Part shown: positions 24,535 through 44,036 of the stretch, piece by piece
How positions within the stretch are numbered: the stretch's first letter is position 1
How the letters are laid out: the number at the start of each line of letters is the position of its first letter
DNA from: Myxacorys californica WJT36-NPBG1
GTDB taxonomy: Bacteria > Cyanobacteriota > Cyanobacteriia > Leptolyngbyales > Leptolyngbyaceae
Assembly: GCA_019359315.1 (NCBI GenBank)
Contig: JAHHHO010000002.1
Coordinates: 62,001-126,000 of the forward strand
Length of the DNA stretch: 64,000 nucleotides
Direction of reading: 5' to 3'
Translations under genes and position numbers: made by a program
The notes under the pieces: model-generated
Told to the model about the DNA's origin: nothing
What the model saw: the letters and a program-made list of their open reading frames with translations, nothing else
Databases searched by the model: none

Positions 24535-24822
24535 CATCAGCAACACCAAACTAAATCGGAACAGCAAAATAATCTTTGATCCAAACACCAACTCATAAAA
24601 TCCGCATTTTCTAAGGCTGCATCCAGAACAGATGATCCTATACAAATAGAACGCAACACAACGGAATTTCTATGAACCGCGATCCTTCGGAGCTTGGCTC
24701 TGCCAATCGCGTAATAAATAGCAATAAATAATTGTCTAACAATTTAGCGAAATAGATAAATTCAATACATTTTTTTCTCACATTAGATCTTACTGTTGCA
24801 ACAACAAATCAATAGTCAGCCT

Positions 24823-24940
24823 CTAGGGTTCCGACTCAATCTATCCAAATTTGAGTGACTGGTCCGAGAGAGGCAAGCTAGTTAGAAGTTTTGCAACAAA
24901 GCTTACTTACAGCTACACGGCGGGACAAAAGCCCGGGAGG
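24823..24940 (+). promoter_or_regulatory. guanidine-I riboswitch (ykkC-yxkD class) aptamer
   Basis: The three conserved blocks of the ykkC class are present in order: CTAGGGTTCCG (24823-24833), ACTGGTCCGAGAGA (24858-24871) and ACACGGCGGGACAAAAGCCC followed by GGGAG (24915-24939). The first two blocks are joined by a hairpin with ACTCAA/TTTGAGT arms, the second and third by a variable helix, as in the family. The class senses free guanidinium and usually turns genes on. Downstream lies a NitT/TauT-type ABC importer of the sort placed under this riboswitch in other cyanobacteria. Confidence 0.92.
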
Positions 24941-24987
24941 AATGAGAAACCTAGTAGACAAAGGTTCCTCATGACTTCTGGGTTTTT
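24932..24987 (+). terminator. riboswitch expression platform: terminator competing with the aptamer
   Basis: CCCGGGAG (24932-24939), the conserved 3' strand of the aptamer, can instead pair with CTTCTGGG (24975-24982) including G-U pairs. Inside this, an 11-bp near-perfect stem (arms ATGAGAAACCT and AGGTTCCTCAT) encloses a 9-nt loop, and TTTTT (24983-24987) follows. Aptamer folding and this terminator are mutually exclusive, so ligand binding should prevent termination. Confidence 0.85.
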
Positions 24988-25296: not shown

Positions 25297-26340
25297 ATGA
25301 GACGATCCTTCATTACTAGCGTTGCTCTTTTTCTGGTTGGGTTAACGCTAACCGTCAGTTGCGCTAATCCTGCCTCTACAATTAAAACCAATACTGGGCA
25401 AGGCTCCACTGATGGCGGCGCGGCGGGTCGTGCTCGGTTAGGCTATAGCGCGTGGCCCGGTTGGTTTCCCTGGAAAGTGGCTGAAGATCAGAAGTTTTTT
25501 GCGGCCAACAACGTTCCAGTCGAACTCAAGTGGTTTGATGGTTATCTAGAGTCGATTAATACGCTGACGGCTCAACAGATTGACGCAAATAGCCAAACCT
25601 TGAATGACACGGTTAGTTCACTAGCGGGCGGAGCCGATCAAGTGGTGGTGCTGGTCAACGACAATTCTACAGGAAATGACAAAATCATCGTCCGTGAAGG
25701 AATTAATACGATCGCCGATTTGAAAGGGAAGAAAGTGGCGGCAGAAGAAGGCGCAGTCGATCATTTCCTGCTGCTCCTGGGACTGAAAAAAGAAGGAATG
25801 TCACCGAGTGATATTCAATTTGTGCCGCTAGAAACTGGAAAAGCGGCTGCCGCATTTGTGGGAGGGCAAGTTGATGCAGTTGCGGTGTTTGCGCCCTTCA
25901 CAACACAAGCGCTCAAGCGTCCGGGTAGTAAAGAACTCTTTAGCTCTAAAGACTTTCCAGGAGCGATTCCAGATCACCTCGTTGTCTCCCGCAAGTTTCT
26001 CAACGAGCATCCCGATCGGATTCAGTCGATGGTGAATTCGTGGTTTGCCACGCTGGACTACATTCAAAAGAACTCGACCCAAGCGATCGACATCATGGCA
26101 AAGCGGGCAGGGGTTACCGTCGCCGAATACCAAGACTACGCCAAAGGCACGAAGATTTTTACGCTTGAGGAAAATCTGAAAGCCTTTCAGCCAGGAAACG
26201 ATATGAGTTCGTTGTCTTACGCGGCAGCTCAAATGGCAGACTTTCTACAAGAAGTCGGACTCGCGAAACAAAAGCCTGATCTGAGCAAAATGTTCGACGA
26301 TCGCTTTGTCAAAGCTTATGCAGCTAAGGCAAAGACCTAA
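25297..26340 (+). CDS. ABC transporter substrate-binding lipoprotein, NitT/TauT (SsuA/ThiY-like), probable guanidine importer, 347 aa
   Basis: Periplasmic binding component. A signal segment ends in the lipobox TVSC (Cys about 23). The mature part is a type II binding protein with LGYSAWPGWFPW near the ligand pocket, GKKVAAEEGAVDHFLL and DAVAVFAPFT. This tryptophan- and acid-rich opening suits a small cation. Location behind a guanidine-I riboswitch, followed by permease and ATPase genes, matches the arrangement of the guanidine-uptake operon of Synechocystis (sll1080-sll1082, from memory). Ligand is inferred from the riboswitch, not from the protein alone. Confidence 0.88.
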   Translation: MRRSFITSVALFLVGLTLTVSCANPASTIKTNTGQGSTDGGAAGRARLGYSAWPGWFPWKVAEDQKFFAANNVPVELKWFDGYLESINTLTAQQIDANSQTLNDTVSSLAGGADQVVVLVNDNSTGNDKIIVREGINTIADLKGKKVAAEEGAVDHFLLLLGLKKEGMSPSDIQFVPLETGKAAAAFVGGQVDAVAVFAPFTTQALKRPGSKELFSSKDFPGAIPDHLVVSRKFLNEHPDRIQSMVNSWFATLDYIQKNSTQAIDIMAKRAGVTVAEYQDYAKGTKIFTLEENLKAFQPGNDMSSLSYAAAQMADFLQEVGLAKQKPDLSKMFDDRFVKAYAAKAKT

Positions 26341-26399
26341 CGCTTGATCTTTCCTTGCGTCAGCCTTGTCGCAAGTCATCCTTCACCCCTCGTCTTTCC

Positions 26400-27236
26400 A
26401 TGAGCCATACCGAACCCGTCGACCGGTCTACAAAATCTCTCGGTTCAACTGTTTTCTGGCGACTTGCCGAAGATATTCCCAGACCTCTCCAAACGGGGTT
26501 GATGATTGCCTCAATCGCGGTGCCGTTGCTCTTGTGGTGGTTGCTCACCACGTTTGGCAGCATTGATCCGACGTTTCTCCCGTCGCCTGCCAACGTGATT
26601 ACGGCGTTTGGTAGGTTGTGGAGTACAGGCGAACTGCTGCAAGATACCGTAGCGAGTCTGTGGCGGGTTGGGGTTGGCTTTTTCATGGCTGTCTTGTGCT
26701 CTATTCCTGTTGGGGTGTTGATGGGTAGTTTTGCCAGCATTCGTGCCCTTTTGGAGCCGTTGTTTGGCTTGGTTCGCTATATGCCTGCGCCTGCGTTTAT
26801 TCCGCTCCTCATTCTCTATTTAGGCATTGGCGAAGAACCGAAAATTACCCTAATTTTTATTGGTGTTTTCTTTTTCAACTCCCTGATGGTGATGGATACG
26901 GTTAAATTTGTGCCGAAAGATTTAATCGAGGCGACTTACACCTTAGGAGGAAACCGACTGCAAACCTTGCTCCAGGTAATTTTTCCTCATGTGCTTCCTG
27001 GCATTCTCGATGCCAGTCGGATCAACTTAGCAGCGGCGTGGCAGTTAGTCATTGTGTCTGAGCTAATTGCAGCAACAGAAGGCTTAGGGCGACGAATCAG
27101 CGTGGCGGGTCGCTTTCTCAGAACAGATGAGATTTTTGTGGGTCTGATTGTAATTGGAGTGATCGGCTTAATATTCGATTTGTTCTTTCAGTATTTGCTG
27201 CGGGTGAGTTGCCGTTGGGCGGCCCAAAAGCGCTAA
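26400..27236 (+). CDS. ABC transporter permease, NitT/TauT family, 278 aa
   Basis: Membrane subunit of the riboswitch-controlled importer. About six membrane helices; the coupling-helix region reads EATYTLGGNRLQTLLQVIFP, the EAA-type loop that contacts the ATPase. The frame opens with TTG 26355, but ATG 26400 gives the usual short cytoplasmic tail. It begins 59 nt after the binding-protein gene. Confidence 0.9.
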   Translation: MSHTEPVDRSTKSLGSTVFWRLAEDIPRPLQTGLMIASIAVPLLLWWLLTTFGSIDPTFLPSPANVITAFGRLWSTGELLQDTVASLWRVGVGFFMAVLCSIPVGVLMGSFASIRALLEPLFGLVRYMPAPAFIPLLILYLGIGEEPKITLIFIGVFFFNSLMVMDTVKFVPKDLIEATYTLGGNRLQTLLQVIFPHVLPGILDASRINLAAAWQLVIVSELIAATEGLGRRISVAGRFLRTDEIFVGLIVIGVIGLIFDLFFQYLLRVSCRWAAQKR

Positions 27237-32554: not shown

Positions 32555-32851
32555 AACTACTTTCTGTACCTTCCTTGCCTACGGTACTGATCCCCACCGC
32601 GATCGCAGTCTAACTCTCGATAGAAAAGTATTTTAGATAGTTAAGTTTTTACCGTCTCAAGACAGATTGTGTTCAAACCCAGATTTGTTTAGCTTTGTAT
32701 TATTCTACAAAAGCGCAAAAGCGTAGCATATAATACAGATATATACGTTCATCTTCAGTAAGCACGCGCTGAACGAGACGGAAGTAAGGAGTTCTCCTGA
32801 AGGAACGCGCCTCACAACCTAACCCACGCTACTTTTCTCCCAGAGGCGACT
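32555..32851. other. 297-nt divergent promoter region
   Basis: Between the amylase and DUF4278 genes. A TATAAT hexamer near 32728-32734 faces the DUF4278 gene; no convincing -35 partner at normal spacing was found. Confidence 0.35.
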
Positions 32852-33286
32852 ATGAAGCTAATTTATCGCGGTTCTACCTACGAATACGACCCGACCCAAC
32901 CCAGGCGCACAGACAGCGATCGATTCGAGAACGTTCGAGAGCCGTTCACCCTAACCTATCGTGGAAGCGTTTACCGGCTCGATCCCCATCAGCAGCCCGC
33001 TCCAGCTACTTATCAACCTCGCTCAGCCTACCAGTTAACCTACCGAGGCAGCACTTACCAAGTGCAGCCAAACGGAGAGCGGACGACAGCGACACGCCCG
33101 ATTAAACCAACTAAAAGTGTTAAAACGCCGCTCACGGTGTCTGCGATCGCTTTATCTAGGAATCTATCAAGGGTTCACCAGGCTAACCTAGAGCGCAATC
33201 TGCAACGCCGCATTCAAAGCGCCCAAGAGAAAGGGGATAATGCGCTGTTAGCTTTGCTAGAAGCGGAGCAACGTCAGCTTGTCTAA
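32852..33286 (+). CDS. DUF4278 protein with three repeats, 144 aa
   Basis: Three copies of the short DUF4278 strand motif (YRGSTYEYDP, YRGSVYRLDP, YRGSTYQVQP) occupy the first 75 residues, separated by proline-rich linkers. A basic helical tail with NLERNLQRRIQ follows. The family is found mainly in cyanobacteria and has no known function. A strong terminator follows, so this is a one-gene transcript. Confidence 0.88.
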   Translation: MKLIYRGSTYEYDPTQPRRTDSDRFENVREPFTLTYRGSVYRLDPHQQPAPATYQPRSAYQLTYRGSTYQVQPNGERTTATRPIKPTKSVKTPLTVSAIALSRNLSRVHQANLERNLQRRIQSAQEKGDNALLALLEAEQRQLV

Positions 33287-41221: not shown

Positions 41222-41257
41222 TCTTATTCGAGAGACCTTTCTTATTCGAGAGACCTT
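41222..41257. repeat. 18-nt perfect tandem repeat at the 3' end of the DUF218 gene
   Basis: TCTTATTCGAGAGACCTT at 41222-41239 and 41240-41257. The inner copy touches the stop codon (41256-41258, minus strand) of the DUF218 gene, so the duplication sits immediately after the coding end. Confidence 0.85.
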
Positions 41258-42440
41258 AAAGTGCCCTCACTGGTCGAATCCATCCCCTCAAAAAGTAATA
41301 GATTGAAGTAAGGTACTCGTTAATGACTTTAGAACTCAATTCAAGGGCGTCCACACTCGGCAAAATATCCGATAGTTGGATGTTTCGTAAATCTCCTCCC
41401 TGAACTCGATTTCGGAGTGCCTCTCCACTAGGAACCGTGTAGAAGTCTGTCGGTCGAGGCAGCACAGAGAACGCTCCCTCCCGTTGATTAGCAAATTCTT
41501 GTCTAAACGTTAGCGCCGCACGCGGCATCTGCAATGCAGACGTAACCACTGTAATCTGTCCGTTGTAGTTAACGTTATTGCGCTGAAGCAGATTCCGCAC
41601 ATTCACCGCGCTGTCGTGAACCGTTGGGCTGTTCGGATCTTCTAAGATGTTGGCAACTCCCCGCCCTCGCAAAAACGTTGCTGCATCTCTCGCTTCAGAA
41701 ACACTTTCTCGGCTTTCGCCAGCTCTGACATTACGCCCCGGTCGAGATCCAGCACTAACGACCACACGGCCGCCTTGCTCCCGCGCCAATTCTGCGGCAT
41801 AGATCAACCGATTTCCGCGCTCGGTTAGCTGAATTGGCTGGTCAATGAGCAAATTATACGCACTTGCTGAGATGGGTGTAGGTGGCGGAATCAGCCCAGG
41901 ATTTGTATTTCTCGCACGCGTTGTGCCTGGGGCTGGTAGTCCGGGTCTAAGCTGCAATCGAGTCGTATCTTGCGCTAACACCACAATCACACGCTCCGCT
42001 CCGCCAAGTGCCGCCTCTGGAACCAACTGAATATCTTGAATCGCTTCTGCTTCTGCACGTTGCGCCAAAAAATACGACACCGCAGGCAAACTCAGGATCA
42101 GCAGAACCGGAACGGCGACCCGAAGCAAAATGACTCCGGTAGACGACAAAGCTTTGCCGCGAATCAAATCTGAAAGGGCAATGAGCAGTAAAATCAGCAG
42201 CAATCCCAGGGGCGTAAACGGAACCGAAATCACGCGCCAAATATCTCCAGCGACTCCTTGAGCCGGCGACCCTTGAAAAAACGTGTATACGGCAACTCCA
42301 AGTAATAGAAAAAGCACCAGTCCGCCGAGAAATACTCTGGGAAGCAACCGCAGCAAGACATACCAGGCAAAGATTCCAACTACCACCCACAATAGAACCT
42401 GGGTTAGCAGCACGAATACATCGGTTACTAATAAAACCAT
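41256..42440 (-). CDS. DUF218 (YdcF/SanA-like) membrane protein, 394 aa
   Basis: Three to four hydrophobic segments fill residues 1-130. The soluble DUF218 domain follows (about 150-350) with VIVVLAQD at its first strand, VVVSAGSRPG, the SEARDAATFL helix, TVHDSAVNVRNLL and TVVTSALQMPRA, the conserved order of the YdcF family. The first strand normally reads GxG after the leading residues; here it is AQDTTRL, so the site may be altered. Such proteins are linked to envelope integrity. A GTGTGAGGA stretch lies 29 nt upstream of the ATG. Confidence 0.8.
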   Translation of the reverse strand: MVLLVTDVFVLLTQVLLWVVVGIFAWYVLLRLLPRVFLGGLVLFLLLGVAVYTFFQGSPAQGVAGDIWRVISVPFTPLGLLLILLLIALSDLIRGKALSSTGVILLRVAVPVLLILSLPAVSYFLAQRAEAEAIQDIQLVPEAALGGAERVIVVLAQDTTRLQLRPGLPAPGTTRARNTNPGLIPPPTPISASAYNLLIDQPIQLTERGNRLIYAAELAREQGGRVVVSAGSRPGRNVRAGESRESVSEARDAATFLRGRGVANILEDPNSPTVHDSAVNVRNLLQRNNVNYNGQITVVTSALQMPRAALTFRQEFANQREGAFSVLPRPTDFYTVPSGEALRNRVQGGDLRNIQLSDILPSVDALELSSKVINEYLTSIYYFLRGWIRPVRAL

Positions 42441-43037
42441 GCTGTAATTCCTTGCGTTGCGGTAAACATCCTCACACCCCGTGCAAATTTAACCATCTAT
42501 AACCTACAGCCAGCAATCTACTTTGATTAAGACAACTAGAACAGACCCTAGTTTGACTTATCGGATAGAGGCGCAAATTAGCAACGTAAAGGGCTTTCAA
42601 GACTAGGATTGTACCGAAGATTGTTGATACATACGCTCTTTTTTTGCAATAAACGTCTATTTTTTCTGAAACTAGATTTCAGAACGCAAAATTTTAGGTA
42701 AATCCTTCCTTCCGTTGCATTTAAAATGACTGAGAATTCAGGCAGAATACAAAACTGTGATACTCAGCCGGAACATCATGTTCTGAACCGCGATTTGCCC
42801 AAAGCTCAACTTTAGAAGAAACCGTACATCAGGAGATAAATGGATGGAAGTTATTTTGGCAGGGATTGCGTTTTCAGTCATCTTCTTTCTATTGGGTCGC
42901 GATCTATTGCAAGGGGGAAAGAAGAAATAAGAGGTTGATAGACATTATTAAGTAAGAATTAATTAAGTGAGATTGATTCCTGACTGTCGTAGCCAAGAAT
43001 GAAAGGGAAATAGAAGTAGTGTTGGGGGAATAGCGAC
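42441..43037. other. 597-nt gap before galE, containing one small ORF
   Basis: Divergent promoter region. Apart from the 28-codon ORF at 42844-42930 nothing coding is visible; the part between 42600 and 42780 is AT-rich with promoter-like hexamers. Confidence 0.5.
42844..42930 (+). CDS. small single-pass membrane protein, 28 aa
   Basis: ATG preceded at 8 nt by AGGAG, then a hydrophobic helix (residues 2-18, EVILAGIAFSVIFFLLG) followed by a charged end with GRD and KKK and a TAA stop. This is the architecture of the tiny subunits of photosystem, cytochrome b6f and NDH complexes (PetL, PetN, Psb30 and similar), but the sequence is not one I can match. The good ribosome binding site and the clean hydrophobic segment make a real gene likely. 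It lies 107 nt upstream of galE in the same direction. Confidence 0.6.
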   Translation: MEVILAGIAFSVIFFLLGRDLLQGGKKK

Positions 43038-44036
43038 GTGCAATCAGAAAAATTGACCGTTTTAGTCACTGGAGGAGCCGGATACATTGGCTCTCATGCC
43101 GTATTAGCATTGCAGCAAGCTGGCTTTGAAGTTGTTGTGCTTGACAATTTGGTGTATGGACACCGCGACATTGTAGAGAATGTTTTGAAGGTTGAGCTAG
43201 TTGAAGGGGATACCAGCGATCGCGCTCTGCTCGACAGCTTATTTGCCTCGCGATCGTTCGCAGCCGTTATGCACTTTGCCGCCTACGCTTATGTTGGTGA
43301 GTCTGTCACTGCTCCTGATAAGTACTACCGTAACAATGTGATTGGAACGCTCACCCTCCTAGAAGCAATGGTGGCAGCGTCCATCAAAACCTTTGTGTTC
43401 TCCTCAACCTGCGCGACCTACGGCGTTCCCAATCAAGTTCCGATTCCAGAAGACCATCCCCAAAACCCGATCAATCCCTACGGCGCAACAAAACTGATGG
43501 TGGAGCGGATCTTGGCAGATTTTGATCCCGCTTATAGTTTCAAGTCCGTTAGCTTTCGGTATTTCAATGCCGCAGGTGCTGACCCAGAAGGCAGACTGGG
43601 AGAAGACCACAATCCAGAAACTCACCTGATTCCGTTGGTGTTGTTAACGGCACTGGGTCAGCAAGATGCAATCTCAATTTTTGGTACAGACTATCCAACA
43701 CCTGATGGCACTTGTATTCGAGACTACATCCATGTAACAGACTTAGCCCAAGCGCACGTCCTTGGTCTGAAGTACCTGCTTAATGGAGGCGATTCTCAAA
43801 CATTTAATCTAGGAAATGGCAACGGCTTTTCAGTCCGCGAAGTGATTGATACGGCGCGTCAAGTCACCGGGAAGCCTATTCCTGCTGTAGAGCGCGATCG
43901 TCGTCCTGGTGATCCTCCGGCTCTAGTTGGCAGTGCGGAAAAAGCTCAAACTGTTTTGGGATGGTCTCCTCAGTACGCCGATTTAACTCAGATTCTGACG
44001 CACGCTTGGCAGTGGCATCAGAAACGACATCAATAA
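43038..44036 (+). CDS. galE: UDP-glucose 4-epimerase, 332 aa
   Basis: Interconverts UDP-glucose and UDP-galactose for galactolipids and polysaccharides. NAD-binding TGGAGYIGSH at residues 11-20, active-site SST (122-124), and Tyr 148/Lys 152 in PYGATKLMVE of the short-chain dehydrogenase type. The C-terminal RRPGDPPALVGSAEKA is family-typical. The start is GTG. The transcript ends at a 34-nt palindrome. Confidence 0.95.
   Translation: MQSEKLTVLVTGGAGYIGSHAVLALQQAGFEVVVLDNLVYGHRDIVENVLKVELVEGDTSDRALLDSLFASRSFAAVMHFAAYAYVGESVTAPDKYYRNNVIGTLTLLEAMVAASIKTFVFSSTCATYGVPNQVPIPEDHPQNPINPYGATKLMVERILADFDPAYSFKSVSFRYFNAAGADPEGRLGEDHNPETHLIPLVLLTALGQQDAISIFGTDYPTPDGTCIRDYIHVTDLAQAHVLGLKYLLNGGDSQTFNLGNGNGFSVREVIDTARQVTGKPIPAVERDRRPGDPPALVGSAEKAQTVLGWSPQYADLTQILTHAWQWHQKRHQ

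Follow-up and report, generated by a model that had tools for sequence, protein, structure and literature searches.

A 28-codon gene lies between a DUF218 gene and galE

The window analysed here is a stretch of 64,000 nucleotides from Myxacorys californica WJT36-NPBG1 (contig JAHHHO010000002.1). Between a gene for a DUF218 membrane protein on the minus strand (41256-42440) and galE on the plus strand (43038-44036), it carries a small gene at 42844-42930 on the plus strand. The product, MEVILAGIAFSVIFFLLGRDLLQGGKKK, comprises 28 residues followed by a stop codon and is predicted to be a membrane protein with a single helix. An AGGAG ribosome-binding site occupies positions 42831-42835 (+), 8 nt from the ATG at 42844. 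Coordinates, strand, length, stop codon and the position of the ribosome-binding site agree exactly with those given in the initial annotation of the locus. A second ATG at 42840, out of frame with the first, opens a frame of 32 codons, and conservation is found only in the frame that starts at 42844.

The DUF218 gene is divergent from the small gene and was identified by PF02698 (E = 1.2e-18). The N-terminal membrane region of its product resembles the septal protein FraI (NCBIfam, E = 3e-26, below the cut-off of the model). The downstream gene matches TIGR01179 with 461.9 bits, and we treat it as context outside the unit.

Short ORFs are common in this DNA, with 94 ORFs of 20 codons or more overlapping the 6 kb around the locus, as would be expected if the small frame were a chance ORF. 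However, it is the sole ORF of 20-60 amino acids on either strand of the window that combines a ribosome-binding motif with a strongly hydrophobic stretch. Run on 40 windows simulated with matching first-order composition, the search returned a mean of 0.05 such ORFs and a maximum of 1. Taken with the conservation and selection described below, this rarity makes a chance origin extremely improbable.

Conservation and selection in the window's own family

Families were given working labels, of which f1 (Leptolyngbyaceae, genus Myxacorys) is the window's own and f13 and f43 are two others; G and L numbers denote genomes and loci. A single-sequence search of 38 genomes placed the best relatives in f1, and the nearest relative with the ORF is Myxacorys almedinensis A, a member of the same genus. 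A seven-row profile gave matches at E<1e-10 in 12 of the 42 genomes of f1. The divergent DUF218 gene, a constant neighbour in f1, served as an anchor: it was found in 41 of the 42 genomes, and 38 upstream regions were readable, and three loci (L069, L096 and L097) in which the upstream region or the start could not be read were set aside. Twenty-four of these 38 genomes have the small ORF, oriented away from the DUF218 gene. The remaining 14 have no small ORF at this locus and gave no match elsewhere at E<=0.05. Counted by profile, 18 of the 42 f1 genomes gave no match to the small gene.

Among the 24 copies the start codon is ATG in 11, GTG in 12 and GTA in one (G002), and this last copy may be broken or may use another start. 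The frame of the G008 copy continues beyond an A run to 49 residues, which may reflect a homopolymer error. By a count made by eye, 19 of the 24 copies have GGAG or GAGG in the 22 nt that precede the start. The peptide begins with an acidic N-terminus and continues into a single helix, in which A6, I/V8 and F10 are conserved; a basic-acidic pair comes after it. The lysine-ended tail pointed out in the initial annotation holds for the window copy and does not extend to the family, as a C-terminal KKK is seen in 4 of the 12 closest copies, most of the others ending in a single K or R.

Over codons 2-22 of the 12 closest f1 copies, pN was 0.168 and pS was 0.637, a ratio of 0.26, and the variable sites at codon positions 1, 2 and 3 numbered 14, 6 and 19 of 21, respectively. 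By these measures, this part of the gene is under purifying selection. In an alignment of the intergenic region from 12 genomes, conservation is high inside the ORF and drops after the stop codon. A conserved frame in relatives, on which the reading as a gene had been made to depend, is found in 24 f1 genomes. The conserved frame, start and ribosome-binding site, together with purifying selection, are established by comparison of the copies, and on this comparative footing we regard the ORF as a true gene that codes for a protein.

We built a tree of the DUF218 N-terminal region from the 38 f1 genomes; it represents one gene and was midpoint-rooted. Carriers of the small ORF occur in both deep clades, which suggests that the ORF was present in the f1 ancestor and was later lost or diverged. 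The genomes without it fall mainly in one nine-genome clade, with G010, G015, G041, G011 and G054 scattered over the tree.

Conserved elements in the intergenic region

The intergenic alignment contains two conserved blocks. An element of the TCAGGCA...AAT type (42738-42755, +) aligns across most of the 12 closest genomes, about 90 bases 5' of the small gene, and is weak or absent in G008, G021 and G046. It is possibly a promoter or operator of the small gene. Scanning the window for this element with up to 3 mismatches returned nothing, because the window copy differs from it by more than that. The second block, TAGGATTGTACCGAA (42604-42618, minus strand), is nearly invariant in the 12 genomes and occurs as a single copy in the window, in an intergenic region that is otherwise variable. 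Since its minus strand reads TACAAT, which is -10 like, this block is probably the promoter of the DUF218 gene.

Relatives in two further families

Outside f1, a profile built from f1 copies only gave 13 matches at E<=0.02. Ten of them belong to one class of f13 ORFs, one is a copy in f43 and two are unrelated stretches; among the 13, L051 was judged by its 391-residue frame. With wider profiles that included f13 rows, an ORF of 23-26 residues was found in 28 genomes of the f13 roster of 63, for example MDLAIAAIVFGAIFVLFTRDVFEG. A Fur-family gene converges on it, tail to tail, in 26 of the 28 (25 by pattern and G146 by eye), and one of the two copies without this neighbour sits at a contig end. 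Membership of the neighbour in the FUR family was confirmed by Pfam, and presumably it resembles PerR/FurC. Wherever the patterns detected dnaN or rimM, these genes were upstream of the f13 ORF, and one example of each was confirmed by Pfam. The pN/pS ratio of the f13 ORF was 0.27 over 27 of the 28 copies, G146 being left out as a copy outside the pattern that was read by eye. The single f43 copy, MELILAAITFGLVFWAVMSQLSKG, adjoins gyrA and was included among the rows of the last profile.

The profiles of f1 (22 rows) and f13 (10 rows) scored 40.4 against each other. Permuted controls reached a maximum of 28.9 when the hydrophobic core columns were permuted and 14.9 when nearly all columns were permuted (150 controls each). 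The f1 and f13 sets are likely homologous by this comparison, a relationship that sequence alone cannot prove because the helix is so short. We also inspected the Fur-family gene of f1 itself. The pattern detected this gene in 27 of 30 loci, and no convergent ORF of the small family was present in these 27; three loci, including that of the window's own genome, were unread by the pattern, and seven of the 37 genomes with the gene yielded no locus. Separately, locus L183 (genome G189) has, in a frame at about 573 (+), a relative that is longer, at about 48 residues; its helix is similar and its tail is basic and rich in proline.

These arrangements bear on the possibility that translation of the small frame, as a leader peptide or upstream ORF, governs galE. 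In the window, galE follows about 100 nt downstream on the same strand, and it is the downstream gene in 14 of the 24 f1 copies. The other ten copies are not followed by galE (in one genus an opposite-strand sugar transferase takes its place), and f13 copies face the Fur-family gene instead. Moreover, it is the amino acids that are conserved, and Rfam detected no element at the small-gene locus. As the downstream gene is variable, with galE linked in no more than those 14 copies, we dropped the galE leader as a candidate and consider such a role very unlikely.

Wider distribution and resemblance to bioenergetic subunits and toxins

Among 388 genomes of the class, the f43 copy (G377) was the one match with E below 1e-3 that came from neither f1 nor f13. 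In 20 genomes of other groups, including f13, the DUF218 gene had no candidate ORF upstream, one of these 20 upstream stretches being shortened by a contig end. Viral contigs gave no match, and plasmids gave one only, at E=7.

Searches of Pfam, NCBIfam and the PDB with MEVILAGIAFSVIFFLLGRDLLQGGKKK as a single sequence returned no family match. Four relatives compared with Pfam and NCBIfam likewise gave none, apart from one chance NCBIfam row (E=0.076). A profile search of the PDB returned chance-level rows only, namely two PsaI chains (E=0.26 and 0.84) and a YajC chain (E=5.7). The initial description as a small single-helix membrane protein is supported, and none of the three databases offers a named counterpart.

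Subunits of the PsbT, PetN and PsaM type match the small protein in size and layout, and the initial annotation had suggested that it may be a new member of the small subunits of bioenergetic complexes. The f1 profile adds the weak PsaI match at E=0.26, and a photosynthetic or respiratory subunit that is confined to some lineages or evolves fast could look like this. Yet no bioenergetic gene adjoins the small ORF, and no match was found in 18 of 42 f1 genomes or in nearly all other cyanobacteria searched. So patchy a distribution speaks against a subunit common to all cyanobacteria, whether of a photosystem, the b6f complex or NDH, as far as sequence searches can tell. In addition, the genome encodes its own PsaI elsewhere (above cut-off) and a probable PetL, an ORF that scored 29.5 bits against a family cut-off of 30.1. 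The idea that the small protein replaces a missing PsaI or PetL was dropped, PsaI being present and the PetL-like ORF falling just below the cut-off. The assignment to a bioenergetic complex did not hold up in these comparisons, and we regard even a lineage-specific subunit as unlikely.

One helix followed by a basic tail is also a usual layout of type I toxin-like and stress peptides, and the small protein shares it. A hydrophobic peptide of this kind would act alone on the membrane. But genomes with the gene mostly have a single significant match, its position is stable and it has been retained for long, and the searches of viral contigs and plasmids returned nothing better than E=7. We therefore consider a toxin-like or stress peptide quite improbable.

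Comparison with known small proteins

PsbT, PetN, PetL, PsaM, PsaI and NdhP/NdhQ are of similar size and have a single helix; unlike them, the small protein has no Pfam or NCBIfam family match. One-helix accessory subunits or regulators are also known among bacterial peptides of the KdpF, CydX, AcrZ and MgtS type. The small protein likewise matches no family of these, and its flanking genes here are the DUF218 gene and galE.

The small-protein survey of Synechocystis (PMC5126843) provides a precedent for discovering such genes. Norf4, a 31-residue single-helix protein, is reported in that survey to vary hardly at all across 51 genomes that cover every morphological type, with a transcript that overlaps gap1 (PMC5126843). 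It resembles the small gene product in being tiny, cyanobacterial, missed by annotation and predicted to form one helix, whereas the family found here is patchy and lies at another location, a comparison of published distribution and gene position (PMC5126843). A model for the proposed mechanism is SbtC, a small helix protein that belongs to the SbtA/SbtB bicarbonate transporter complex and that a commentary describes as the product of an unannotated small ORF with a predicted helix and a patchy distribution that modulates a larger membrane protein (PMC13360264). SbtC is encoded upstream of sbtA, which the small ORF is not, and this comparison too is one of descriptions (PMC13360264). Such peptides can tune transporters or membrane complexes, as proposed for SbtC.

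Searches of the literature on small cyanobacterial proteins and on small membrane proteins of Leptolyngbya, with subscription papers mostly outside their scope, turned up no description of the family. Judged from their sequences, these 23-28-residue single-helix membrane proteins would form an undescribed family, new as a family and known as a kind of protein. With it, at least two cyanobacterial families gain a group of unannotated proteins that are under selection and fall short of the usual size limit of gene finders.

Proposed function

The likeliest reading, to which we assign a probability of about 0.6, is that the ORF is a real gene whose product serves a larger membrane protein as accessory subunit or regulator, with a stabilising or regulatory role and a single helix oriented N-out/C-in. 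The peptide would be translated from its own short mRNA and inserted through its single helix, its acidic N-terminus facing outwards and its basic C-terminus facing the cytoplasm. The basic flank of a membrane helix generally lies on the cytoplasmic side (the positive-inside rule), and the tail of the small protein is placed in the cytoplasm for this reason. Because the conserved residues lie inside a lone helix, docking on a larger membrane protein is suggested: A6, I/V8 and F10, together with the basic-acidic pair at 19-20, may pack against such a partner, which the peptide would stabilise or regulate as an accessory subunit.

In f1, the divergently encoded DUF218 envelope protein would be the first candidate partner, although the small ORF is not linked to DUF218 in f13. 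A more specific version of this idea makes the family a dedicated one-helix regulator of the FraI-like DUF218 protein that, in filamentous cyanobacteria, tunes the assembly of the envelope or of cell-cell junctions; the relative next to the Fur-family regulator in another family would then have been moved and re-wired. We hold this version to be a long shot.

Riboswitches elsewhere in the window

Two riboswitches were found at a distance from the small gene. A guanidine-I riboswitch at 24812-24941 (+) scored above the gathering score, and the ORFs 3' of it, at 25297-26340 and 26355-27236, resemble by eye a substrate-binding protein and a permease. A glutamine riboswitch of the glnA-leader family lies at 32744-32811 (+) and is followed, instead of by glnA, by an ORF of 144 residues (32852-33286) with repeated YRGS motifs.
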